Positions 6,300-18,207 of a stretch of DNA of 32,965 nt are shown piece after piece. Each line of letters opens with the position of its first letter. The first letter of the stretch is position 1. This stretch comes from Mesorhizobium sp. BR1-1-16 (GTDB taxonomy: Bacteria; Pseudomonadota; Alphaproteobacteria; Rhizobiales; Kaistiaceae). Below the pieces are notes generated by a model, which saw nothing but the letters and a program-made list of their open reading frames with translations, ran no database searches and was not told the origin of the DNA. A program made the position numbers and the translations under genes. The stretch is from assembly GCF_020165495.1 (NCBI RefSeq), contig NZ_JAIUIE010000022.1, positions 1 to 32,965 on the forward strand. The letters run 5' to 3'.

Positions 6300-7334
6300 T
6301 CACATCGAAGGGGAGGCGAGGTTCGCGCCGATCTGGCGGTAATAGGCGCGGAGCCGGTCGGCATCGCCAGCAAACATCGCCGCGACCCATTGATGATAGG
6401 CATCGGCGGTTTCGCGGGCCGGTGCCCTGCCACCGAGGCTGGCCGCGATCAGGTGTCCCGCCGTCATTCCGGACAGCAGCGCCTTCAGGACGCCATGCGA
6501 GGATGTCGGATCGAGCGTTGCCGACGCATCGCCGACCATGAACCATCCAGGCCCGGCCGTCTGCTCCGCCATCCGCCAGGTCACATCGGCGCCTCTCTCA
6601 GGTCCGAGCGCGGCGAGCCCGAGAAGCTCGTCCGGTACCGCGCCGACGGCGCGTCCGCCGAAGCGGACGGATGTCCACTGGTAGAGGTCGGGTTTCACCC
6701 GCGCAGACCAGGTCCAGCCCGACACATTGCCGACCAGCAATGGCGCCTCGTCGCGGGCGGGACACGAGCCCTCCCGGTAGCCATAGCGCGCGATCAACTG
6801 TGGCGAGCGCACGACCCCGCCAATGTCCAGCATGCGGCCAAGCCACCGGCTCGCGCCTGTCGCATCGACGACAATGCGGGAGGAGATCGGACCGGCTGGT
6901 GTCATGATGCCGCCGAGGCCGGCTTCGTCCTTGAGGACGCCGGTTGCCGCGCAATCCGTGTGCACGACAACGCCAACGGCGCGCGTTCGCTCGAGCAGCA
7001 TGGCGTCGAAGTCGGCGCGCCATACCTGAAACCCGTGCCAGGGACCGTTCTGATCCTCGCCGAAGGATTCGAAACGACGCGGCCCACCCCACTCGATCCA
7101 GATCCCTTTATGGCGCGCGCCGACGACTGCGTTCAAACGCTCCGCCAGGCCGAGTTGCGCGAGCAAGGGCTCGATGCCCGGATGCAGCGTTTCGCCGGGT
7201 CGGTCGCGAAGGCCGGGCTCGCGTTCGCAGAGGACGACGCGCAATCCGCGCGTGGCGCAGGCGATCGCCGCCGCGCAGCCTGCGGGCCCGCCGCCGACGA
7301 CGACTATGTCGGCATCGACGTGTCGGCTATCCAT
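6300..7334 (-). CDS. FAD-dependent halogenase/LodB/QhpG-like flavoprotein
   Basis: This 344-residue cytoplasmic flavoprotein starts with a Rossmann dinucleotide motif (G14-G-G-P-A-G19). It has a P-G-E-T segment near residue 45 like that of flavin-dependent halogenases, a D-A-T-G-A-S-R segment near 156 and an FAD-ribityl motif G-D-A near residue 278. At residues 205-208 it has G-W-T-W, reminiscent of the halogenase G-W-x-W-x-I-P motif but without the I-P. This makes a true halogenase less likely and a monooxygenase of the LodB/QhpG kind more likely; those proteins modify a protein Trp during tryptophylquinone formation. It overlaps the 3' end of the upstream Tat-exported protein gene by 31 bp, so the two are translationally linked. 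The family call is from motifs only; the modification role is inference from the pairing. Confidence 0.72.
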   Translation of the reverse strand: MDSRHVDADIVVVGGGPAGCAAAIACATRGLRVVLCEREPGLRDRPGETLHPGIEPLLAQLGLAERLNAVVGARHKGIWIEWGGPRRFESFGEDQNGPWHGFQVWRADFDAMLLERTRAVGVVVHTDCAATGVLKDEAGLGGIMTPAGPISSRIVVDATGASRWLGRMLDIGGVVRSPQLIARYGYREGSCPARDEAPLLVGNVSGWTWSARVKPDLYQWTSVRFGGRAVGAVPDELLGLAALGPERGADVTWRMAEQTAGPGWFMVGDASATLDPTSSHGVLKALLSGMTAGHLIAASLGGRAPARETADAYHQWVAAMFAGDADRLRAYYRQIGANLASPSM

Positions 7335-9820
7335 GGACCGTTTTCTCGCTGGATGAGAACGATATTGTCCGAGACATAGGCCCGAGCCTGTTCCAGCACC
7401 TCCAGGAGAACGACATTCATGTCGTCCGGATGCGCGGTCTCTTTGCCCCAGCGGATAACGTGGAAGGAATAACGGCGCGGGCCGGAAAGCTGGACGCCCG
7501 CCGCTTTTTCCGCCGCCAACAGCCCTGCGTCATCAGGCTTCACGGTCAGGAATGACAGGACCGACCACTTGGCCTTGGCTTGCAGCACCTTGAAAGCGGC
7601 TGTCTTCTTGTCGAATTGCTTGAGAAATTCCGGATCATGGATGCCGAGCGCCCAGTAGACGCCAGCCATGGCCATGATACGCGCGCGATATTCCGGGGTA
7701 TCGATGCGCGAGGTGAGCGCTGCCGTCATCGTGCCGACCGTGTCGATGTAGTCGACCCTGTAGGCATTGGGATAGGCCACGACCGGTTTGTCGGCCATGG
7801 TGATCAGTTTCGGGCCGCGAACACCGTCCCAGGGCAGATAGCGTCCATCCTCCAGCGGCGCGCTGCCGATCTCTTGGTCGGTCAGCGGAATGATCGTCGG
7901 ATAGGGATAGAATTCCCCGCCGATCCCCTTGTCGGGCGCGAAGGTCCTGGTCGAATCCGGCGCGACGCCAGGCCAATAGGCGCCAAGCGCCGCGCAGAGC
8001 TTGGCATCTTCGATAAAGGGCGATCCGAGCCCGTAGCCGGCCATGAACTTCTGCAGCGGCCTGTTCGGGTCTGTGTAGTAGATGCCCTGACTTGTGTCCC
8101 ATCCCGGATCGAAAAGACCCGGCGAGCCGTCCGGCAACCCGGTCTTCTGAACCTCCCAGGGTCCGTTCGGATGCTGGACTTCGCTTGCCGCTTCCGTCGG
8201 CTGCGTGACGATCGCCGTGATGGTGGTGTCTTCGAGACTGAAGCCGACCGGCAGCGTGATATTGCCGGCCATGCGTGTTTGCGACAGGGCAAGAGGGTGG
8301 ATCGCCCACAGCGCATCACGGATCGGCTCCGGCACCTCGTTCTGCCACCAGACCATGAGATCGCGCTGCGTCACCTTCGGGAAGAAGTCGGGCAGTCCCA
8401 CCGTGCAATAGGCCGGCAAAATCCAGTCCACGCTGGTCTTCAGCTGCGGGCAGTCCACTTCGACCCAGCCGTCGCCGACGCCATCGAAATAGTGCAGGGC
8501 GTCATAACCGCCGGCCTTGATCACGGCATCCATGTCAGGGCGGAGGTTGAGATTTTCGATCTGTCCGTTCGGCAGAACGCGGTGTCGGATATTGATGTAT
8601 TCCGGCGCCGGGCGCTGCGTGTCGCGAAATGCATCCAGCATATAGCGTGGCTCGCCCGCTGGCGGGTCGGGCATGCCGACCGGCAGGATCTGCATGGCGC
8701 CAAGCTGGAGGTTCTCGGGCTCCGACGTATAGCGTCCGTCGACCGGAAAGGTCAGCAGCCGGCCGTCATACTGAGCCGGCGTCAGCAACGGGTTCGGAAG
8801 CGGTTCCAATACGCCATCGCCGAAGTCCGGTCGCTGCGAAAGCGAGCCGATCCTCTCATCCTTGATGGTGAAGGGGAAATTCTCGAGGTCTTCGCCGCGC
8901 CAGTTGTTCTTGAGCCCGTTCAGATCGAGGAAGCGATGGAATTGCGCCAGCCCGTCATTGCGCAGTCCGCGTGTGAGCTCGACGCGAAGATCAAGCCCGG
9001 CAATGCATTCGCGGCCGCTGAACAGCTTGTGGATCGGCACCCAGAACGGCAGATCCTTGTCTTCCGGCAAGGTGTCCTGCGGCCCGAAGGCTTCCGATGC
9101 GCCCTGCATCTGAATGGCGAGAAACGCCACGAACCGCCGCGGCATGACGCGGAACTCGAACGGCTGCGCGTCGTCCAGCGGGACGAAGTTGCGCGCGCGC
9201 CCGTCATAGAGCGGCTCCAGCGTGCCGAGACGCGTGATGCCGGTCCGGGAGAAGCACAGCTCGGCGTGCTTTGAATGAACCGACATCGGCGCGCTCTGGT
9301 ATTGCGGCGCGAACACGACCATGCCGAGCGGCCTGCCGCCCGCTTGTCGGCGAATGTCCTCGAGGGTCGGTGGCGCGACGCCATACACATAGTTCTCGAC
9401 GGCTTCGATCTCGGCGAGCGTCGGAAACCCGCGCAACGCGTTGCCGCTGCGGTCGGCCACCACGGTCGGCGATGCCAGGGCGTGGTAAAGCAGGCTGCGT
9501 TCGGGCCGGCCCGCCTCGATGCCCTTCGAGCCGGCGAGCGCGAAATCGCCGAAGCCTGGATAGCTGCGGTCGATGCGGGTCAACGTCTTGCCCAGCTCCG
9601 CCCCGAGCGGATCCGCCTCGATATCCAGTTCTCCGCCGGTCGCATCGAGCAGGAGCTGACGCCATCCGAGCGGGGCGAGCCGCGCGCAGGCCGCGCGCAC
9701 GCTGTCGACAAGGGGGCGATCCTCGCCGGCAATCGCGCCGAGGTTTGGAAAGGCGACGAACGCGCCAACCCCCAAGGCAGTCGTCCTCAGGAAGCTGCGG
9801 CGCGTGACAGCCCAAGACAT
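7304..9820 (-). CDS. Large Tat-exported protein of unknown function, candidate modified-Trp oxidase
   Basis: The protein has 838 residues. The N-terminus carries a twin-arginine motif (R-R-S-F-L-R, residues 7-12) followed by a hydrophobic stretch to about residue 31 and an A-G-E cleavage-like site, so it is probably exported already folded. I do not recognise the mature part as a known family. It is rich in Trp, Tyr, Pro and Asp, with no obvious repeats or membrane segments after the signal. Cys residues are few; C609 sits seven residues before W616 in a conserved-looking segment (D-A-K-L-C, then Y-W-P-G). The start ATG has a GGGAG ribosome site. The next gene overlaps it and encodes a halogenase/LodB-like flavoprotein. 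That layout recalls LodA-LodB, but the N-terminus does not look like LodA, so identity with that family is not claimed. Confidence 0.6.
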   Translation of the reverse strand: MSWAVTRRSFLRTTALGVGAFVAFPNLGAIAGEDRPLVDSVRAACARLAPLGWRQLLLDATGGELDIEADPLGAELGKTLTRIDRSYPGFGDFALAGSKGIEAGRPERSLLYHALASPTVVADRSGNALRGFPTLAEIEAVENYVYGVAPPTLEDIRRQAGGRPLGMVVFAPQYQSAPMSVHSKHAELCFSRTGITRLGTLEPLYDGRARNFVPLDDAQPFEFRVMPRRFVAFLAIQMQGASEAFGPQDTLPEDKDLPFWVPIHKLFSGRECIAGLDLRVELTRGLRNDGLAQFHRFLDLNGLKNNWRGEDLENFPFTIKDERIGSLSQRPDFGDGVLEPLPNPLLTPAQYDGRLLTFPVDGRYTSEPENLQLGAMQILPVGMPDPPAGEPRYMLDAFRDTQRPAPEYINIRHRVLPNGQIENLNLRPDMDAVIKAGGYDALHYFDGVGDGWVEVDCPQLKTSVDWILPAYCTVGLPDFFPKVTQRDLMVWWQNEVPEPIRDALWAIHPLALSQTRMAGNITLPVGFSLEDTTITAIVTQPTEAASEVQHPNGPWEVQKTGLPDGSPGLFDPGWDTSQGIYYTDPNRPLQKFMAGYGLGSPFIEDAKLCAALGAYWPGVAPDSTRTFAPDKGIGGEFYPYPTIIPLTDQEIGSAPLEDGRYLPWDGVRGPKLITMADKPVVAYPNAYRVDYIDTVGTMTAALTSRIDTPEYRARIMAMAGVYWALGIHDPEFLKQFDKKTAAFKVLQAKAKWSVLSFLTVKPDDAGLLAAEKAAGVQLSGPRRYSFHVIRWGKETAHPDDMNVVLLEVLEQARAYVSDNIVLIQRENGPWIADTSMPT

Positions 9821-10046: not shown

Positions 10047-10919
10047 TCACCGCGTCAGGGGATTGTCGCCATGCCACCAATGGGCGAAGGGGTCGGACTG
10101 CAGGATCCGATCCATCGTCTCGCGGCTGATGCGCGGCAGCTTCGTGCCTTCGAGCTGGTCGTTGATCCCGAGAAGGCCATCGACCGATTCATCGACGCGC
10201 GCGAAGGGGAAGTCGGTTCCAAAGAAGATCTTGTCGGTGATGCGGTATTCCTGCGCGCACATCAGGATGTTGTAATACTGCCAGGGACGATAGGAGAGCG
10301 CTGAGACTTCGCAATAGACGTTCGGCTGCTTGCGCGCGACGACGATGCAGTCCTCGTACCAAGGGTGGCCCATATGGGCCATCACCATCACGAGATCCTT
10401 GTATTTCTGGGCGATGGGTTCGACATGGATTGCCCGGCCCATATCAACAGGCGCATTGCGGGCGAAGGTCGTGCCCATATGCATGGTGAGCGGGATGTTG
10501 TTCTTCTGCAGATATTCATAGACCGGGACCAGCCGCGGATCGGACAGGGCCACACCGTTGTAGATCGGGCCGAACTTCACGCCCTTCAGCTTCAGGTCTT
10601 CGATCGCATGCACGAGCATGTTCATGCAGTCGGCGCGGCGCGGATCGACATAGGCAAAGCCGACGAACTTGTCGGGATATTTCGCGACGGCGGCGGCGGT
10701 CGTCTCGTCGTCGCTCTCGATGCCGACGCTGTCGCCATAGCGCAGCGCGAAGACGATCGCCTTCTCGACATGATCCATTTCGGCGTAGAGCGTATCGGCA
10801 TCGGCCTTCGGCGCCATGTCGCCGGCGCGCACGCGGGCCAGTTGCTCCGCATAGAGCGGCAGCACATGCTCGTCGTTCCAGATATTGACGTGGCAATCGC
10901 AATAGGCGCGGGCGGTCAT
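10047..10919 (-). CDS. Amidohydrolase-2 family TIM-barrel protein with altered HxH motif
   Basis: The protein has 290 residues in the ACMSD/lactonase-type amidohydrolase family. Family landmarks are an early D-C-H segment (H10), H147 in M-H-M-G, H182 and H185 in A-H-M-G-H, and D236 in F-G-T-D-F-P. The usual metal motif H-x-H at strand 1 is H10-V-N12, so the second His is Asn. Members act as decarboxylases or as sugar-lactone hydrolases. In this operon, next to a sugar dehydrogenase and an aldonate dehydratase, a lactonase role is the simplest guess. It is the last gene of the minus-strand operon, 14 bp after the ATPase. The ATG at 10919 is chosen because a GGGGGAA ribosome site sits just upstream; the in-frame start at 10937 lies before that site and inside the ATPase gene. 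Confidence 0.85.
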   Translation of the reverse strand: MTARAYCDCHVNIWNDEHVLPLYAEQLARVRAGDMAPKADADTLYAEMDHVEKAIVFALRYGDSVGIESDDETTAAAVAKYPDKFVGFAYVDPRRADCMNMLVHAIEDLKLKGVKFGPIYNGVALSDPRLVPVYEYLQKNNIPLTMHMGTTFARNAPVDMGRAIHVEPIAQKYKDLVMVMAHMGHPWYEDCIVVARKQPNVYCEVSALSYRPWQYYNILMCAQEYRITDKIFFGTDFPFARVDESVDGLLGINDQLEGTKLPRISRETMDRILQSDPFAHWWHGDNPLTR

Positions 10920-10933
10920 TTCTATTCCCCCGG

Positions 10934-11713
10934 TCAATGGGCAGCTGCCGCCGCCGGGCGGCGGGCATGCAGCGACATCAGGAAATCGGTGAGTTCGAGA
11001 TAGGTCATGCTGGAGGTCGGCGCGTCGAGCGCGATCTCGCCGCGATCAAGCACGACCAGGCGGTCGCAGACCTCGTGCACGTGATGGATGTTGTGCTCGA
11101 TATAGATGCAGGAGCGGCCGCCGGACTTGATCGAGCGGATGAAGTCGAGAACCTTCTGCACTTCCTTCAGAGCCAGCGCCACGGTCGGCTCGTCAAGGAC
11201 GATCAGGTCACTGTCGAAATGCATCGCGCGGCCGATGGCGACACCCTGGCGCTCGCCACCCGAAAGGCGGCTGACCGGCGTATCGACATCGATGCCGACA
11301 CCGCGAAAGCCGATGGTCGAGCGCATGATGTGCTCCGCGACCTTCTTCTCTGCCTTGACGTCGATGAAACCGAACCGGTTGGTGATCGGCCGGCCGACGA
11401 AGAAATTGCGCCAGAGCGGCTGCTTCTCGCCGAGCGAGGAATCCTGATAGACGGTCTCGATGCGCAGCTTGTGCGCTTCCTTCACCGTGTAGGAGGAGGC
11501 ATCGATCTTCTGGCCGCGGACATAGAGCGTGCCGCTCGTCGGGGGCTCGACCCCGGTGAGCACCTTGATCAGCGTTGATTTGCCGGCGCCGTTGTCGCCG
11601 ATCAGCCCGACGATCTCGTTGGCGCCGATCTCAAGCGTCACGTCCTTGAGGCTGACGACCTTGCCATATTTCTTGCCGACATGCTCAAGGCGGACGATCG
11701 GGGTTGAGGTCAT
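10934..11713 (-). CDS. Ribose-type (CUT2) sugar ABC transporter ATPase, single domain
   Basis: The protein has 259 residues. Walker A is G39-D-N-G-A-G-K-S-T47, the signature is L-S-G-G-E-R-Q and Walker B is L-I-V-L-D-E-P-T, followed by an H-loop in I-E-H-N-I-H. It powers the importer with the permease and binding protein encoded upstream. Most CUT2 ATPases (RbsA) are double-domain proteins of about 500 residues. This one has a single nucleotide-binding domain, like FrcA of rhizobia, so it should work as a homodimer. The ATG at 11713 is preferred over an in-frame start at 11740, as it is followed at once by a typical beta-strand start of the domain. Confidence 0.92.
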   Translation of the reverse strand: MTSTPIVRLEHVGKKYGKVVSLKDVTLEIGANEIVGLIGDNGAGKSTLIKVLTGVEPPTSGTLYVRGQKIDASSYTVKEAHKLRIETVYQDSSLGEKQPLWRNFFVGRPITNRFGFIDVKAEKKVAEHIMRSTIGFRGVGIDVDTPVSRLSGGERQGVAIGRAMHFDSDLIVLDEPTVALALKEVQKVLDFIRSIKSGGRSCIYIEHNIHHVHEVCDRLVVLDRGEIALDAPTSSMTYLELTDFLMSLHARRPAAAAAH

Positions 11714-11755
11714 GAAACGCGATCCAGTTCCTGGCTTCAATAAGCGGGCGGAGGA

Positions 11756-11786
11756 TCGGGCGACGCAGCGAAGCCGCGCCGCCCGA
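11756..11786 (-). terminator. Strong intercistronic stem-loop after the sugar-binding-protein gene
   Basis: Arms at 11756-11769 and 11773-11786 pair over 14 bp on the minus-strand RNA, with two G-U wobbles and a 3-nt loop. It begins about 6 bp after the stop of the binding-protein gene and no T-run follows. Position and shape fit a hairpin that protects the upstream mRNA from 3' exonucleases or partly attenuates transcription, raising binding protein over the ATPase as in many importer operons. The role is inferred. Confidence 0.6.
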
Positions 11787-11791
11787 AGGCC

Positions 11792-12769
11792 TTAGCGGAT
11801 GCCGTCCTTCACGAGCGCTGCGAGCGCGTCGACATTGTCCTTGGTCAGGTAGCCGCCGCCGGTGTTGAGCTGCAGGCCAGCGAGGCCGTACTTCTTCTGC
11901 AGCACGGCGGCGACGACCGGCATGAAGCCCTGCAGATAGGGCTGCTGGTCGAGCACGACGGTGATGTAGCCGTCGCGGACGCCCTGGATCGCGCCGGAGG
12001 AAATGTCGAAGCCCGAGGTCACGACTTCGCCCGGCTGCTTGCCGGCTTGCTTCAGCACCTTGTCGAGCACGGCGGTGATGCCGCCATGGCCGGGAACGAT
12101 GATCGCCTTGGTATCGGGATTGGCTTCAAGATAGGCGACGAGCACCGGAACCGACAGCGCCGGATCCTGCACGGCCTCGTTCGACCACTGCAGCTTCGTG
12201 AAGTCGATGCCCTTCTCTGTCAGCACCTCGGCCGTGCCCTTGGCGACATCCGCGCCGGGCGCGCCCTCGATGAAGGCGCCATAGACCAGCACCTTGTCGC
12301 CGCTCTTCAGCTTGCCGTTTTCGATGGTGAGGTTTGCGAGATTGCGTCCGGCACCGTGGTTGTCGAGGCCGAAATAGCTGAGATTGGTGCCGGGTAGCTC
12401 GTTGTTGTTGACCACGACGACGATGCCATCGGCCTTGGCCTTCTCGAGCACCGACTTCATGGCGTCGGTGCCGGGATGTCCCATGACAACCATCGCGTCG
12501 GGCTGCGCCGCGATCGCTTCGCTGGCCTGGACCAGCATCTTCTGCGGATCCCAGCCGGCATGCTGCTCGATCAGGTTGACCTTCAGAACGCGCGCCGCAT
12601 CGCGGGCGCCGAGTTCACGCGCCAACGTCGCCGTGTCGCCGGGATTGCCGCCCATCTGGAAATAGATGGTCATCCCGGAATCGACGGCCTCGGCGGCGAG
12701 TGCCGCGCCTGGCGCGGCGAGCATCGCCGACAGAGCAAGGCCGGCCAGTCCCTTCATCAGATGTCGCAT
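11792..12769 (-). CDS. Periplasmic sugar-binding protein (RbsB type)
   Basis: The protein has 325 residues. The first ~25 form a signal peptide (M-R-H-L-M-K, then a hydrophobic Leu/Ala core ending A-L-A-A). The mature chain has the type I periplasmic binding fold: alternating beta/alpha units, a D-A-M-V-V-M-G-H-P stretch after the first third and a hinge-like V-V-V-N-N-N segment. It delivers a sugar or polyol to the CUT2 permease. The exact ligand cannot be read, though the neighbouring dehydrogenase, dehydratase and amidohydrolase point to an aldose or aldonate. The gene lies 31 bp after the permease and is followed by a stem-loop. Confidence 0.92.
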   Translation of the reverse strand: MRHLMKGLAGLALSAMLAAPGAALAAEAVDSGMTIYFQMGGNPGDTATLARELGARDAARVLKVNLIEQHAGWDPQKMLVQASEAIAAQPDAMVVMGHPGTDAMKSVLEKAKADGIVVVVNNNELPGTNLSYFGLDNHGAGRNLANLTIENGKLKSGDKVLVYGAFIEGAPGADVAKGTAEVLTEKGIDFTKLQWSNEAVQDPALSVPVLVAYLEANPDTKAIIVPGHGGITAVLDKVLKQAGKQPGEVVTSGFDISSGAIQGVRDGYITVVLDQQPYLQGFMPVVAAVLQKKYGLAGLQLNTGGGYLTKDNVDALAALVKDGIR

Positions 12770-12800
12770 GGTGTTCCCCTTTTTCCCTTGGAAGCAGAAT

Positions 12801-13823
12801 TTATCTTCTCGCGCGCGAGCGGAGATCCTTCAGCAACGGGACCTTGTCGGGATCCTCTATTGCCGCATTCATGGTGACGGAGACGATGAAGACGAGGCCG
12901 ATGAAGAAGCGGGTCCAGAAGCCCGCGACGCCGCTCGCAACGAGCCCCGCCTCGATGATGGCGACGATCAGCGAGCCGAACACCGTGCCGACAACCTTGC
13001 CGGCGCCGCCAAAGATCGACGTGCCGCCGATGAACACCGCTGCGACGACCGTGAGCAGATATCCCATGCCGGCCTGCGAGAAGTAGGTGGTTGTTTCCAG
13101 CGTCAGCAGCACGCCGGCAAAGGCCGACAGCAGCCCCATCAGCGTGAACAGCTTGATCTTCTCGCGGTCGATGCTGATGCCGACGACCTTGGCGACCTTG
13201 AGGTTGTCGCCGATGAAGAGGAGGCTTTCGCCGAAGCGGTGGCGGTTGAGGACCATCCAGACCAGCCCGGCGACGCCGAGCGCCCACAGGAACTGCACCG
13301 GAAACACGCCGACGCGCCCGGCGAAGACGCCATGGATCAACGTGCCCTCGATATCGGGAATGGCCAGCGAGGCGCCGTTCGAGACCACCGTGACGAGCCC
13401 GCCCCACAGGAACAGCATCGCCAATGTCGCGATCAACGATGGAATGCCGAGCTTGGTCACGACGAGGCCGTTGACGAAGCCCATCACCGTTCCGGTCGCC
13501 AACGCCGCCACGAGCGCGAGCCAGGTCATGTCGTAGTTCTGGTAGAGCGCGCAGAAGACATAGCTGGCGAAGGCGACGATCGAGGGGAAGGAGAGGTCCA
13601 TTTCCCCCGCGACAACGACCAGCGTCAGGCCGAGCGCGATGATCATCGGCGGCGGCACATTGGCCATGAAGCTCATATAGACGCGAAAGCCCATGAAGGC
13701 CCGCGGCGCCGTGAGCATGAACAAGAGCACCAGCAACAGGAAGACGAAGGCGATCGGCGTGCCCTCGATCTTGAAGAACGCGGCGATCGGGTTGCTGGAG
13801 GCCCGCTTGTCGGCATGCGCCAT
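12801..13823 (-). CDS. Ribose-type (CUT2) sugar ABC transporter permease
   Basis: The protein has 340 residues with about 8-10 hydrophobic segments. It has the family segment A-G-E-M-D-L-S-F (about residues 72-79), equivalent to A-G-G-I-D-L-S in RbsC-like permeases, and a late G-G-x-x-I-F-G-G-x-G-x-V segment, which is also typical. It forms the membrane channel, probably as a homodimer, for the adjacent binding protein and ATPase. Its ATG overlaps the stop of the upstream RraA-family gene by one base (TGATG), implying translational coupling. The gene order permease-binding protein-ATPase is less usual for this class, where the ATPase often comes first. Confidence 0.92.
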   Translation of the reverse strand: MAHADKRASSNPIAAFFKIEGTPIAFVFLLLVLLFMLTAPRAFMGFRVYMSFMANVPPPMIIALGLTLVVVAGEMDLSFPSIVAFASYVFCALYQNYDMTWLALVAALATGTVMGFVNGLVVTKLGIPSLIATLAMLFLWGGLVTVVSNGASLAIPDIEGTLIHGVFAGRVGVFPVQFLWALGVAGLVWMVLNRHRFGESLLFIGDNLKVAKVVGISIDREKIKLFTLMGLLSAFAGVLLTLETTTYFSQAGMGYLLTVVAAVFIGGTSIFGGAGKVVGTVFGSLIVAIIEAGLVASGVAGFWTRFFIGLVFIVSVTMNAAIEDPDKVPLLKDLRSRARR

Positions 13824-14509
13824 CAGAGCACCCCGTATTTCGCGTAGACGTCGCGGAGATAACCTCCGGCCCTGAGCTCATCCATCGAGTGGTCTTCGCC
13901 GCGGATCTTGTCGAAGGCGATCTTGAGCACATCCGCTTCGACCGCTTGCGGCACGACCACGGCGCCATCGGCATCGCCGAAGACGAGGTCGCCGGGTGCA
14001 ACGCGGACGCCGGCACAGATCACCGGCACATCGACCGACTGGATCTGGCCACGACCCTTGGAATCGAGCGGCGCGATGCCGGCATGGAACACCGGCAGCT
14101 TCAACCGGCGGATTTCGAGGATATCGCGCACGAAGCCATCGGTGATGCAGCCGGCCGCGCCGCGAACCGTCGTTGCCGTCGAGAGCAGGCTGCCCCAGGG
14201 CGCGATACGCGAGGAGCCGCCACAGGCGAACACCGCGACATCGCCGGGCTTCAGATCGTCGACGATCGCGATCTCGAGTTCATAGGGGTTCACCCCCTCC
14301 TCGACATAAGCGACTTCCATATAGATGCCGGTGCGCGCGCGGCCGCACATCTTCAGCTGCTCGTCGAGCGGCCGGATCGAGGGCGGGAAGGCCTGATTGG
14401 TGACGCCAACCGCATCGAGCGCATCGGAAAGGACCGCCGAATAGAGCTGCTCCCAGCCAGCAGGCAGCGGAGCATTCTGATACGGCCGGAAGCTTGTATT
14501 CGCAGACAT
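13823..14509 (-). CDS. RraA-family protein (HMG-aldolase-like)
   Basis: The protein has 228 residues. The family core is visible: G-D-V-A-V-F-A-C-G-G, then a G-A-A-G-C-I-T-D-G segment with the downstream V-R-D, then V-A-P-G-D-L-V-F-G-D-A-D-G near the C-terminus. In class II aldolases of this family, such as 4-hydroxy-4-methyl-2-oxoglutarate aldolase, the R and D of these segments bind pyruvate and Mg2+. Here an aldol cleavage or decarboxylation of a keto acid produced by the upstream dehydratase would fit. It could complete a route from aldonate to pyruvate plus an aldehyde, but the substrate is inferred from context only. It starts 11 bp after the dehydratase stop and overlaps the permease start. 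Confidence 0.85.
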   Translation of the reverse strand: MSANTSFRPYQNAPLPAGWEQLYSAVLSDALDAVGVTNQAFPPSIRPLDEQLKMCGRARTGIYMEVAYVEEGVNPYELEIAIVDDLKPGDVAVFACGGSSRIAPWGSLLSTATTVRGAAGCITDGFVRDILEIRRLKLPVFHAGIAPLDSKGRGQIQSVDVPVICAGVRVAPGDLVFGDADGAVVVPQAVEADVLKIAFDKIRGEDHSMDELRAGGYLRDVYAKYGVL

Positions 14510-14520
14510 TTCGCCTCGCT

Positions 14521-16266
14521 TCAGAAGGAAACCTTGGAGGGGGGCGTGCCGCTGCTGCCGACGAGGAAGTCGAAATCGACGCCCTTGTCGGCCTGCTGCA
14601 CGTGATCGAGAAAGAGCTTGCCGTAGCCGCGGTCATAAGCCGGCTTCGGCGGCACGAAATCCTGGCGCCGCCGCTCGAGTTCCTCGGCGGAGAGATCGAC
14701 GTCGATCCGGCGTGCCTCGGTATCGAGGACGATGATGTCGCCTGTGCGAACAAGGGCCAGCGGTCCACCCAGCGCCGATTCTGGCGCGACATGCAGCACG
14801 ACCGTGCCAAACGCCGTGCCGCTCATGCGCGCATCGGAAACGCGGACCATGTCGGTGACGCCCTCGGCGAGCAGCTTCTTCGGCAGCGCCATCGAGCCGA
14901 CCTCGGGCATGCCCGGATAGCCGACCGGTCCGGCATTTTGCAGGACCAGCACGCTGTCGGCGGTGACATCGAGATCGGGATCGTCGATGCGCGCGCGGAA
15001 ATCCTCGGCATCGTTGAACACCACAGCCTTGCCGCGATGCTGCATCAGCGTCTTCGAGGCGGCGGACGGCTTCAGGATCGCGCCATCGGGCGCAAGATTG
15101 CCACGCAGCACGACGAGCCCGCCGCGCGGGGTCAACGGATTGTCGACGGGGCGGATCACCTCGTCGTTCCAGCCTTCGGCGGCGGCGATGCGCGCGCCGA
15201 TCGTGCCGCCCTCGATCGCCGGCGCATCGAGATCGAGGCGATCGGCGATGCGGCGCATGACGACCGGCAGGCCGCCGGCATCGAAGAATTCCTCCATCAG
15301 GAAGCGGCCCGATGGCTTCAGGTCGACGAGGCAAGGCACGTCGCGGCCGAGCACGTCCCAATCGTTCAGCGTGAACGGCACGCCGAGCCGGCCGGCAAGG
15401 GCAAGGAGATGCACGACGGCATTGGTCGAGCCGCCGATCGCGCCGGCAACCTTGACCGCGTTTTCAAACGCCGCCCGGGTAAGGATCTTGGAGATGCTGA
15501 TGTCCTGCAGCACCAGTTCGACGGCGCGCTTGCCAGCTTGTTCGGCCAGCACCGCACGGCGGCTGTCTGGCGCCGGGATCGTGCCGTTCATCGGCAGGCC
15601 AATGCCCATCGCCTCGGTCAGCAGCGCCATGGTCGACGCCGTACCCATCGTCATGCAGGAGCCGGCCGACCGGCTCATCGCAGCCTCGGCCGCCTCGATC
15701 TCGGCCTTCGAGATCTTGCCGGTGCGATAGTCCTCGTCGAGCTTGAAGACATCGGTGCCCGAGCCGAGTTCGCGGCCCTTGTAGCGTCCGTTCAGCATCG
15801 GCCCGCCTGAGACGAGGATTGCCGGCACGTCGCAGCTCGCCGCGCCCATCAAGAGCGCCGGGGTCGTCTTGTCACAGCCGGCGAGCAGCACGACGCCGTC
15901 GATCGGATTGGCGCGGATCGTCTCCTCGACATCCATGGCGACGAGATTGCGGAACATCATCGTCGTCGGCCGCATCAACGGCTCGCCGAGGCTGGTCACT
16001 GGAAACTCGAGCGGGAAGCCGCCGGCCATGAGCACGCCGCGCTTCACATGTTCGGCCAAATCACGCAGATGGCGGTTACAATTGGTCAGTTCTGACCAGG
16101 TGTTGCAGATGCCGATGACCGGCCGTCCATCGAATAGCTCGGCCGAGAATCCCTGGCTCTTCATCCAGCTGCGCGGAATGAATCCATATTTGCCGGCGCG
16201 GGCGAACCACTCCGCGCTGCGGCGCGGACGCGCGGTCGTCGAGCTGGCATCGAGCGTCTCGGTCAT
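14521..16266 (-). CDS. IlvD/Edd-family sugar-acid dehydratase (arabonate/xylonate dehydratase type)
   Basis: The protein has 581 residues. C54 (G-I-C-N-T-W), C131 (A-G-C-D-K) and C204 (A-G-S-C-M) are spaced as the three [2Fe-2S] ligands of pentonate dehydratases, and K133 corresponds to the Mg-site lysine. The length and the N-T-W-S-E-L-T segment fit the L-arabonate/D-xylonate dehydratase branch (about 580 residues) rather than biosynthetic IlvD. It should convert an aldonate to a 2-keto-3-deoxy acid in the cytoplasm. It is the first gene of the operon that continues with rraA-like, ABC importer and amidohydrolase genes. The ATG at 16266 has an AGGGGGAA ribosome site; an in-frame ATG at 16293 lies upstream of that site and inside the proposed operator, so it is rejected. 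Confidence 0.9.
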   Translation of the reverse strand: MTETLDASSTTARPRRSAEWFARAGKYGFIPRSWMKSQGFSAELFDGRPVIGICNTWSELTNCNRHLRDLAEHVKRGVLMAGGFPLEFPVTSLGEPLMRPTTMMFRNLVAMDVEETIRANPIDGVVLLAGCDKTTPALLMGAASCDVPAILVSGGPMLNGRYKGRELGSGTDVFKLDEDYRTGKISKAEIEAAEAAMSRSAGSCMTMGTASTMALLTEAMGIGLPMNGTIPAPDSRRAVLAEQAGKRAVELVLQDISISKILTRAAFENAVKVAGAIGGSTNAVVHLLALAGRLGVPFTLNDWDVLGRDVPCLVDLKPSGRFLMEEFFDAGGLPVVMRRIADRLDLDAPAIEGGTIGARIAAAEGWNDEVIRPVDNPLTPRGGLVVLRGNLAPDGAILKPSAASKTLMQHRGKAVVFNDAEDFRARIDDPDLDVTADSVLVLQNAGPVGYPGMPEVGSMALPKKLLAEGVTDMVRVSDARMSGTAFGTVVLHVAPESALGGPLALVRTGDIIVLDTEARRIDVDLSAEELERRRQDFVPPKPAYDRGYGKLFLDHVQQADKGVDFDFLVGSSGTPPSKVSF

Positions 16267-16292
16267 TGTGTGTTCCCCCTCTGCCCGATCCA

Positions 16293-16304
16293 TGTAACGT
16301 TAAA
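16293..16304. promoter_or_regulatory. Candidate LacI-type operator upstream of the dehydratase operon
   Basis: The 12-mer TGTAACGTTAAA is nearly palindromic around a central CG, as expected for LacI-family sites. Ten of twelve bases match the 12-mer at 17414-17425. It lies between the lacI stop (16342) and the dehydratase ATG (16266), where it could block initiation. The regulator is probably the LacI protein encoded just upstream. Confidence 0.6.
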
Positions 16305-16341
16305 TTTAAATCACGGCAAGCCTCTGCGGCCGCCATTTGCT

Positions 16342-17379
16342 TCAAGTGGTGGCGCCGGGATCGAAATGGACCGGGAGAACAAATTCCGGCCGCTCGAAGC
16401 GGCCGCTCTCGAGGCGGGACAGCATGGCCTTTCCGGCCTGTTCGCCGAGCGCATAGGCGGGGGAATCGACCGTTGTCAGGCGGGGCCTTGCATAGCGATG
16501 CGCCTCGAAACCGTTGAAGCCGACGATGCGCACCTCGTCGGGGACGCGGATGCCATGATCGAACAGATAGAGCATCGCCGCGGTGGCGATGGGATCATTG
16601 GCCCCGACGATCGCGCCGGGCAGCGGATTTGCCGCGAGATAGCGCGCCACCGCCTCCTGTACATCCGCGAAACTCTCGCTTGCCGCGGTGATCACCGTCA
16701 GTCGCGCAGCGCCACCATTGGCCGCGAGGCTCTCGCGCAAGCCCTTGACGCGCATTTCGATCGCCGGCCAGTCCTGGGATGGCACGATGGCGAGAAAATC
16801 CTCCACGCGGCGGGCGAGGAGATGATCGCCGATCAACCGGCCGCCGCCGCAGTCATCCTGGCGGATCGTGCAGAAATCCGCGCCGGGAAGGGCGATCGGC
16901 TCCTGAAAGACGATCAGCGGCTGGTCGAGATTGACCAGTTGGCGGATGGCCGCATGGCGGTCCGCATCATGGCCGGAGATCATGGCGCAGAAGCCGGCGA
17001 CTTCGAAATTGCGCATGATCATCGAGGAGGAGAGCTGGTCGCCATGCATGCCCTGCACGGTCAAGGTGAAGTCGGCACCGTTGAGGACATTGGCGAGCCC
17101 TGCCACCACCTGGCAGGTGAAGAAATCGGCAAGGAAGGCCGGCGATTCGTCGACGATGACCATGCCGATTGAGCGCTGCTCGGCGACGCGCAGGTTGCGT
17201 GCGTTCGCCTGCCGCCGATAGCCGAGCCGCTCGATCTCGCGCTCGACCCGCTTCTTGGTCGCAGGGCTGACGAATTGTAGCCTCTCGTTCAGGACGTTCG
17301 AGACGGTCATGGCCGAAACGTCGGCCGCCTTGGCGACATCCTTGATCGTCGCGCGTCGCCGCGTCGGCTCCTTGCTCAT
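16342..17379 (-). CDS. LacI-family transcriptional regulator
   Basis: The protein has 345 residues. The N-terminal helix-turn-helix is clear: A-T-I-K-D-V-A-K-A-A-D-V-S, then M-T-V-S-N-V-L-N and the hinge helix region through about residue 60. The rest has the periplasmic-binding-like effector domain with a G-M-V-I start and a late segment I-V-G-F-N-G-F-E. It most likely represses the downstream dehydratase/transporter operon and the divergent SDR gene, releasing on a sugar or sugar-acid inducer. The same frame is open much further upstream (to 18165), but a GGAGA ribosome site and the usual LacI N-terminus fix the start at 17379. The upstream extension is the antisense of the SDR gene. Confidence 0.93.
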   Translation of the reverse strand: MSKEPTRRRATIKDVAKAADVSAMTVSNVLNERLQFVSPATKKRVEREIERLGYRRQANARNLRVAEQRSIGMVIVDESPAFLADFFTCQVVAGLANVLNGADFTLTVQGMHGDQLSSSMIMRNFEVAGFCAMISGHDADRHAAIRQLVNLDQPLIVFQEPIALPGADFCTIRQDDCGGGRLIGDHLLARRVEDFLAIVPSQDWPAIEMRVKGLRESLAANGGAARLTVITAASESFADVQEAVARYLAANPLPGAIVGANDPIATAAMLYLFDHGIRVPDEVRIVGFNGFEAHRYARPRLTTVDSPAYALGEQAGKAMLSRLESGRFERPEFVLPVHFDPGATT

Positions 17380-17413
17380 GCTTGCGTCTCCATCCCCACC
17401 GATGCTACCGCCA

Positions 17414-17425
17414 TATATCGTTAAA
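17414..17425. promoter_or_regulatory. Candidate LacI-type operator in the lacI/SDR divergent region
   Basis: TATATCGTTAAA matches the box upstream of the dehydratase at 10 of 12 positions, with the same central CG and the same right half. The 72-bp gap between the divergent lacI and SDR starts holds both promoters, so one bound site could control the SDR and autoregulate lacI. Confidence 0.6.
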
Positions 17426-17451
17426 TCAAACCCTAGCGGATTCGCGATATC

Positions 17452-18207
17452 ATGTCCTCCTATGCTCACTATCCGAGCCTTCGCGGCAAGTCCGTCTTCA
17501 TCACCGGCGGGGCAACCGGCATCGGCGCCTCCCTCGTGTCGCATTTCGCCGGGCAGGGCGCCCGTGTCGGGTTCATCGATATCGACGACACTGCGGCCAA
17601 CGCTTTGATGGCGACGCTGCCTGACGGTGCGGTCTACAGCCATTGCGATGTGCGCGACGTCGCCGCACTGCAATTCGCTCTCGCGATCTTCGAAGCGGAG
17701 GTCGGCCATATCGACGTGCTCATCAACAACGCCGCCAATGATGACCGTCACCGGGTCGAGGATGTCGACGCCGCCTATTGGGACGACCGCATGGCGATCA
17801 ATCTGCGGCCGCATTTCTTCGCAGCCCAGGCCGTGCGGGCTGGAATGGCGCGGGCTGGCGGTGGATCGATCATCAATCTCGGCTCGATCGTCGTCGCGAT
17901 GAGCGCTGCGGAATGTGTCGCTTATGTCGCCGCGAAAGGCGCCATCCATGCCATGACGCGCGCCCTTGCCCGCGAGTTCGGACCCGACATGATCCGGGTC
18001 AATTGCGTCATTCCCGGCTGGGTGATGACCGAGCGCCAGATCAAGCTGTGGCTGGATGATGCCGGCGAGCGCCGGATCGCGGAGCGCCAATGCCTGCCCG
18101 AGAAGCTCGACCCCGACGACATCGCCCGCATGGCGCTGTTCCTGGCAGCCGACGACAGCCGCCACTGTACGGCCCAGAATTTCGTCGTCGATGGCGGCTG
18201 GACCTGA
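17452..18207 (+). CDS. SDR-family dehydrogenase (sugar dehydrogenase candidate)
   Basis: This 251-residue classical short-chain dehydrogenase has the NAD(P)-binding T-G-G-A-T-G-I-G (residues 18-25), the N-N-A-A motif near 91, Ser in L-G-S-I, and the catalytic Y-x-x-x-K in Y-V-A-A-K. The acidic D-I-D-D after the second beta strand favours NAD+ over NADP+. Together with a dehydratase, an RraA-like protein and an importer under apparently common LacI control, it probably oxidises an aldose to its lactone or oxidises a pathway intermediate. It is divergent from lacI. No strong ribosome site precedes the ATG; translation may start on a short leader. Confidence 0.88.
   Translation: MSSYAHYPSLRGKSVFITGGATGIGASLVSHFAGQGARVGFIDIDDTAANALMATLPDGAVYSHCDVRDVAALQFALAIFEAEVGHIDVLINNAANDDRHRVEDVDAAYWDDRMAINLRPHFFAAQAVRAGMARAGGGSIINLGSIVVAMSAAECVAYVAAKGAIHAMTRALAREFGPDMIRVNCVIPGWVMTERQIKLWLDDAGERRIAERQCLPEKLDPDDIARMALFLAADDSRHCTAQNFVVDGGWT

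Follow-up and report, generated by a model that had tools for sequence, protein, structure and literature searches.

A conserved gene pair of Mesorhizobium sp. BR1-1-16 encoding a candidate remote LodA-type protein and a LodB/GoxB/QhpG-like flavoprotein

Organization and conservation of the gene pair

We analyzed a stretch of DNA of Mesorhizobium sp. BR1-1-16 (contig NZ_JAIUIE010000022.1, positions 1 to 32,965; referred to below as the window), which contains two overlapping open reading frames (ORFs) on its minus strand. The upstream ORF (7304..9820) encodes a protein of 838 aa (N-terminus: MSWAVTRRSFLRTTALGVGAF), referred to here as the partner. Based on a 10-member alignment and a profile match to LodA/GoxA-type proteins, it is a candidate remote LodA-type quinoprotein containing cysteine tryptophylquinone (CTQ). 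The downstream ORF (6300..7334) encodes a flavin adenine dinucleotide (FAD) flavoprotein of 344 aa with the sequence GGGPAG close to its N-terminus, a candidate dedicated tryptophan-hydroxylating maturase similar to LodB, GoxB and QhpG. The two ORFs share 31 bp (7304-7334). An earlier note on this DNA had described both of them and proposed that the flavoprotein modifies a residue of its partner, perhaps W616 near C609, before export; the coordinates, lengths and overlap that it reported were all confirmed, and a direct residue check located C609 and W616 at the positions that it gave.

Homologs of the partner are rare and scattered. They were identified at 11 loci, including the window: two copies are present in Kaistia terrae, one in Ancylobacter and one in a Burkholderia, three are carried on plasmids of Acaryochloris, Burkholderia stagnalis and Cupriavidus (the same three records were recovered when two other family members served as plasmid queries), and further copies were found in the genomes G186, G675 and G830. 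Single-sequence searches detected the partner in two of the 289 genomes sampled from the class and in one of the 398 sampled from the phylum (the window's own), and a 6-row profile detected it in 3 of 249 genomes of the order sample. It is missing from all four sampled genomes of the genus of the window, which suggests a mobile or frequently lost unit. No relative was detected in phages or in viral contigs (two scans). The ten full-length members align end to end and share 30 to 72% identity with the window partner. In the literature on tryptophylquinones with an open licence in PubMed Central, no title or abstract start among the matches listed concerned this protein family.

The flavoprotein gene lies directly downstream of the partner gene at 9 of the 11 loci. 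The same gene order with a 31-bp overlap was observed at four related loci (L003, L004, L005 and L006; for L004 the overlap was measured from the aligned start at 10478), and at more distant loci the overlap amounts to 34 bp (L028) and 44 bp (L029). At L008 and L009 the two genes are separated by 14 and 6 bp, respectively, and both genes of L009 appear to be frame-broken. This conservation of gene order and overlap is more than would be expected by chance. The flavoproteins of L008 and L009 were assigned by gene position, since their scores (58.7 and 35.5 bits) are below that of the best non-family flavoprotein in the fetched loci (81.8 bits); the assignment of L008 is supported by the phylogenetic tree described below, from which L009 was left out. 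In G186 the partner gene is solitary and a flavoprotein of the family, whose score with the window flavoprotein as the sole reference is 237.9 bits, is encoded on a separate contig (L080:8207-9208, minus strand). A 225-aa ORF upstream of this unlinked gene was considered as an alternative partner; it was dropped because it matched neither Pfam nor the family profile and because an overlapping ORF of 179 aa, which by eye resembles a membrane protein, is the likelier gene at this position.

We also scanned the genome samples with a flavoprotein profile, scoring at most 8 (order) and 7 (class) candidates per genome. At E <= 1e-30, the profile matched 4 of the 249 genomes in the order sample and 13 of the 289 in the class sample. 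Matches above 400 bits were confined to 3 and 2 genomes, respectively, which are exactly the genomes carrying the partner, and the remaining genomes reached at most 109.5 bits (order) and 129.4 bits (class). The strong rows belong to the profile, and their high scores therefore arise by construction; the lack of other strong rows does not. The pairwise divergence of the partner correlates with that of the flavoprotein (r 0.91, 8 pairs), which would also be expected from shared descent.

The candidate CTQ site

Residues 598-622 of the partner (7955..8029, minus strand) form a candidate CTQ site comprising D605, C609 and W616. These three residues are identical in all ten aligned members, and the downstream piece of the frame-broken L009 retains the site as well. 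LodA forms its CTQ from C516 and W581, according to the part of PMC4417212 consulted. In a profile comparison with LodA/GoxA-type proteins, described below, D605, C609 and W616 were placed on the columns of the CTQ Asp, Cys and Trp, albeit with a weak score (in both comparisons; third match in that with 26 rows). By our count, the LodA residues in these columns are D512, C516 and W581, with Cys516 located in P-W-Q-A-D-F-F-N-C and Trp581 being the second W of Y-W-W-P-P. In GoxA, C682 lies four residues and W697 nineteen residues after D678 (also counted).

The CTQ Cys and Trp are invariant in 25 LodA/GoxA-type rows, and the Asp-Cys distance is 4 in all 25 rows spanning the site, as it is in the partner family. 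The Cys-Trp distance is more variable: 5 to 37 residues in the LodA/GoxA-type rows, 65 in LodA and 7 in the window partner. The shortest distance, of only 5 residues, was found in two LodA/GoxA-type proteins, L107 of Paraburkholderia caribensis and L111 of Hymenobacter cellulosilyticus. As stated in the part of PMC7876137 consulted, the Asp proximal to the cofactor is strictly conserved in tryptophylquinone enzymes, although a GoxA Asp678 mutant nonetheless formed CTQ. The proposal that C609 and W616 are the modified pair is therefore well supported at the level of sequence, by their invariance and by their alignment, together with D605, onto the CTQ site.

Profile comparison with LodA/GoxA-type proteins

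LodA/GoxA-type sequences were gathered from genomes and plasmids and compared with the partner family, profile against profile, using hhalign. With 10 family members and 13 LodA/GoxA-type rows, three collinear local matches were obtained, the best of which (score 36.8) was reached by none of the 394 scored column-shuffled decoys (400 made; maximum 25.4). A second comparison, in which a short row was excluded and 26 of the 27 LodA/GoxA-type rows remained, gave a best score of 44.5 (probability 37.6%, E 3.4e-4), with 296 of 300 decoys at or below 26.6. The other four decoys beat the best real match (131 to 139 bits). We regard them as end-of-profile artefacts, because their alignments are short (2 to 29 columns in those inspected), run into the final decoy columns and have a nearly equal score whatever the start. 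Long alignments produced by forced low-confidence realignment (mact 0.1) were not used.

The strongest match, identical in all settings, covers residues 444-483 (8372..8491, minus strand), which align with the LodA/GoxA segment D-D-x-x-D-G-x-V ... P-x-Y-A-P; its score was reached by none of the 394 decoys and by none of 150 segment shuffles. Two matches are common to both comparisons, namely this segment and the CTQ site, and it is the strength of the former and the recurrence of the latter in the correct order that carry the weight. The profile matches suggest that the two families are remotely homologous, and it is most likely that the partner is a remote relative of LodA with an added N-terminal region. 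The assumption of the earlier note that the protein may represent a separate family, unrelated to LodA, is thus probably wrong. The proposed homology derives entirely from profile comparison.

The flavoprotein

Comparison of the flavoprotein with NCBIfam models gave the lowest E values for QhpG (1.1e-30) and GoxB (6.8e-28), followed by CmlS (1.1e-22), the geranylgeranyl reductase family (1.1e-21) and LodB (9.8e-18). The protein is below every curated cut-off among these models (NF038171, 64.4 bits vs. 400; NF038174, 97.7 bits vs. 400; NF049967, 106.9 bits vs. 240). With 344 aa, it is similar in length to the models of LodB (361 positions) and GoxB (358), whereas that of QhpG is longer (423). 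FAD-dependent halogenases are characterized by the motif GWxWxIP. Inspection of the sequence revealed G206-W207-T-W209 followed by S-A-R, with no IP, as the earlier note had pointed out; the halogenase motif is not present.

A phylogenetic tree of 34 rows places the nine rows of new flavoproteins in a clade of their own (support 97/95), which joins the LodB/GoxB-type rows weakly (80/72), with QhpG and other FAD rows outside. The LodB/GoxB-type rows were labelled by their score against the GoxB model or by their position beside a LodA_C match, and this group also includes another FAD row, which has no assigned function. A tree in which the new clade was constrained to group with QhpG was not rejected by the approximately unbiased test (p-AU 0.153).

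Further regions of the partner protein

The partner begins with a Tat (twin-arginine translocation)-type signal region (residues 1-31; 9728..9820, minus strand) containing R-R-S-F-L-R. Its score with the Tat model TIGR01409 (15.5) is slightly under the cut-off (16.7). The motif R-R-x-F-L is present in the window partner and in the partners of L003, L004, L005 and L006, and the other five of the ten aligned members do not contain it; the Tat signal is therefore a feature of one branch.

An extra N-terminal region (residues 36-165; 9326..9715, minus strand) is evident from the family alignment and is helical in the structural model, where residues 41-70 have a predicted local distance difference test (pLDDT) value of about 82 and the remainder lower values. 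Approximately 130 residues thus appear to precede the LodA-like part, in agreement with the observation of the earlier note that the N-terminus does not resemble LodA. The region contains P-E-R-S-L-L-Y-H-A-L-A-S-P ... F-P-T-L-A-E-I-E-A-V-E-N-Y-V-Y-G. By eye it has a cytochrome-c-like look, without a CxxCH motif, and library scans of the whole protein gave no match.

Besides D605, C609 and W616, the residues C272, W53, W491, W574 and W664 are invariant in all ten members. A profile search of the window partner against LodA_N, LodA_C and Pfam, which the earlier note had suggested, gave no match to either of the former (see below) or to any Pfam family at E <= 10, and no PDB sequence matched at the same threshold. 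When the ten members were scanned with Pfam, signal-sequence models were detected (PF10399 in three members and PF10518 in two); a match to Tcell_CD4_C in one member (E 8e-4) was taken as chance.

Proposed function and alternative explanations

It is probable that the pair represents a remote branch of the LodA/LodB (GoxA/GoxB) type, composed of a candidate quinoprotein and a maturase dedicated to hydroxylating its tryptophan; export by Tat would be confined to one branch. The computational grounds are the pairing of the genes, the invariance of D605, C609 and W616, the resemblance of the profile to that of LodA/GoxA-type proteins with these residues at the CTQ site, and the similarity of the flavoprotein to QhpG, GoxB and LodB as well as to halogenases. 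In such a system, we infer, C609 and W616 of the partner would be converted to CTQ, assisted by the conserved Asp D605. By analogy with LodB/GoxB and QhpG, W616 would be hydroxylated by the flavoprotein, which would bind the precursor in the cytoplasm before export and introduce one or both oxygens; the thioether between C609 and the W616 ring and the quinone would then be formed. Tat transports folded proteins, and maturation before export would therefore fit the branch of the window, in which the finished, folded enzyme would exit by this route. Outside the cytoplasm it would oxidize an amine or amino acid, with O2 or a cupredoxin-like acceptor receiving the electrons. Concerning the hydroxylation step, mono-hydroxylated Trp is the presumed substrate of the flavoprotein in LodA/GoxA, and unmodified Trp that of QhpG (PMC7876137, in the part consulted).

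Several observations weigh against the assignment to the LodA type. No LodA_N or LodA_C match was found for the window partner at E <= 10, nor for any of the ten family members at E <= 1 (Pfam), and HMMER, run with filters off and a search space of 1000, did not detect the relation (lowest E value 0.74 in one direction and 0.44 in the other). The probability that hhalign itself assigns is 37.6% with the whole profile and 56% with a single segment. Moreover, the second match moves: it covers residues 280-292 in the 13-row comparison and, in the 26-row comparison without realignment, residues 193-205 (9206..9244, minus strand), where T-G-I-T-R-L-G faces the N-terminal G-I-A-R-V-G of LodA/GoxA, a weak match found in this one setting only. 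Upon realignment the second match of the 26-row comparison falls just after the D-D-x-x-D-G segment, and the G-I-A-R-V-G match is therefore counted as a hint only. A fourth match (score 18.1) is not collinear, and the second and third are weak when taken alone, the best score of 5 and 19 of 300 decoys, respectively, being at least as high (the four artefacts included). Of the segments compared separately, that of the CTQ site aligns in the vicinity of W616 alone, with 2 of 150 shuffles attaining its score, and those containing F-x-P-G (58 of 150) and V-H-V-A-N-K (27 of 150) are not significant. The AlphaFold model of the partner (5 sequences) has a mean pLDDT of 41 and is unusable for judging the fold, and C272 (9005-9007, minus strand; in H-K-L-F-x-G-x-E-C), the sole other Cys invariant in 10 of 10 members, is unexplained. 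Finally, the earlier note had proposed to check whether homologs always occur with the flavoprotein. They do at the nine adjacent loci and, with an unlinked gene, in G186; on the Acaryochloris plasmid, no flavoprotein gene was found beside the partner gene or elsewhere on the plasmid (the plasmid only being searched), which in part speaks against the proposal of that note.

An independent origin, with a partner unrelated to LodA and a flavoprotein that came separately to hydroxylate a Trp beside a Cys, as has been argued for quinohemoprotein amine dehydrogenase (QHNDH), would account for the lack of a Pfam match and for the extra N-terminal region. The Cys-Trp distance of 7, which is near the 6 of Cys37/Trp43 in QhpC (PMC7876137, in the part consulted), and the grouping of the new flavoproteins with QhpG, which the constrained tree did not reject, point in the same direction. 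We nevertheless consider this origin unlikely: the best match to LodA/GoxA-type proteins is far above the decoys, the CTQ site is a further match in the same order, and proteins of the LodA/GoxA type with a Cys-Trp distance as short as 5 exist (L107 and L111). The possibility that the flavoprotein is a small-molecule halogenase or monooxygenase, and the exported protein a pathway neighbor without a quinone, seems less probable still. The best PDB sequence match of the flavoprotein is indeed the halogenase 8zop (E 6.9e-37), with QhpG (7ctq) at 5e-4, which also counts against a LodB-type function; Trp_halogenase of Pfam matches above its cut-off, and a Foldseek search with a weak model of the flavoprotein ranks 8zop and other halogenases above QhpG. 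However, GWTW is not followed by IP, the QhpG and GoxB models of NCBIfam outscore the CmlS halogenase model, no genes for a halogenated product and no other biosynthetic genes were recognized among the nine neighboring window proteins searched (Pfam), and the invariant D-x3-C...W of the partner lies on the CTQ columns of LodA.

A different protein-derived cofactor, such as a mono-hydroxylated Trp, a Cys-Trp thioether without a quinone or a cross-link involving C272, could be argued from C272 being the second invariant Cys, and from the replacement of the His of GoxA F-H-P-G by Asp or Ala in the F-x-P-G of the family (paired by eye; the segment test was not significant). As all three CTQ-site residues (Asp, Cys and Trp) are retained, this seems very improbable.

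The chances are about even that the pair constitutes an undescribed lineage with a self-made tryptophylquinone, far outside the described LodA groups and distinguished by an added N-terminal domain and its own maturase clade; within one branch, Tat export would be gated by cytoplasmic completion of the cofactor. To our knowledge, tryptophylquinone enzymes are few in number. If the pair makes CTQ, the LodA kind extends much further than profile libraries reveal. With only two genes and a Cys-Trp distance of 7, it would also provide a minimal case for studying how a flavoprotein chooses one Trp in a folded protein and how this modification is timed relative to Tat export.

Neighboring genes

Upstream of the pair, on the same strand, the window contains genes encoding an amidohydrolase, an ABC ATPase, a periplasmic binding protein, a permease, a dihydroxy-acid/sugar-acid dehydratase and a LacI-type regulator (10047-18165, minus strand), which resemble a sugar-acid uptake operon.

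Among the loci examined in this respect, the genes adjoining the pair offer slight hints as to the mechanism. In G830, the gene just upstream of the pair (L029:8730-9827, minus strand) encodes a possible electron acceptor, a protein of 365 aa that carries a cupredoxin domain at its N-terminus. A gene of the animal-type haem peroxidase family follows the pair in G675 (L028:10091-11608), and a DyP peroxidase gene is located on the opposite strand near the Acaryochloris partner copy. In Burkholderia sp. 4M9327F10, a gene of the PixA (inclusion body protein) family lies immediately upstream of the pair (L006:7312-7932).

Comparison with known systems

The FAD-dependent halogenases (8zop, Bmp2 and CmlS) share the FAD fold with the window flavoprotein and include its best PDB sequence match; they differ from it in that the window protein does not contain GWxWxIP and is tied to a protein partner. 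QHNDH (QhpC/QhpG) also involves a flavoprotein of the QhpG type, and the spacing in QhpC (Asp33-Cys37, 4; Cys37-Trp43, 6; PMC7876137, in the part consulted) is close to that in the partner (4 and 7). QhpC, in contrast, is a small subunit whose cross-links are introduced by a radical SAM (S-adenosylmethionine) enzyme, whereas the partner comprises 838 aa, and Pfam searches of the nine neighboring window proteins revealed no small cross-linked subunit, radical SAM enzyme or haem subunit.

The resemblance to the glycine oxidase system (GoxA/GoxB) lies in the gene arrangement and the site, as for LodA. According to the part of PMC4417212 consulted, all but three members of group II, to which GoxA belongs, have a twin-arginine motif, and the window partner has one too. 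The window flavoprotein differs from GoxB in reaching 97.7 bits on the GoxB model, whose cut-off is 400. The lysine epsilon-oxidase system (LodA/LodB) differs in that the partner has no LodA_N or LodA_C match and approximately 130 extra N-terminal residues, that the flavoprotein is placed in its own clade, and that HMMER is blind to the relation. It likewise consists of a large protein and a downstream flavoprotein, the latter being needed there for CTQ formation (PMC4417212, in the part consulted), and LodA and the partner have in common the D-x3-C ... W site and are linked by the profile matches.

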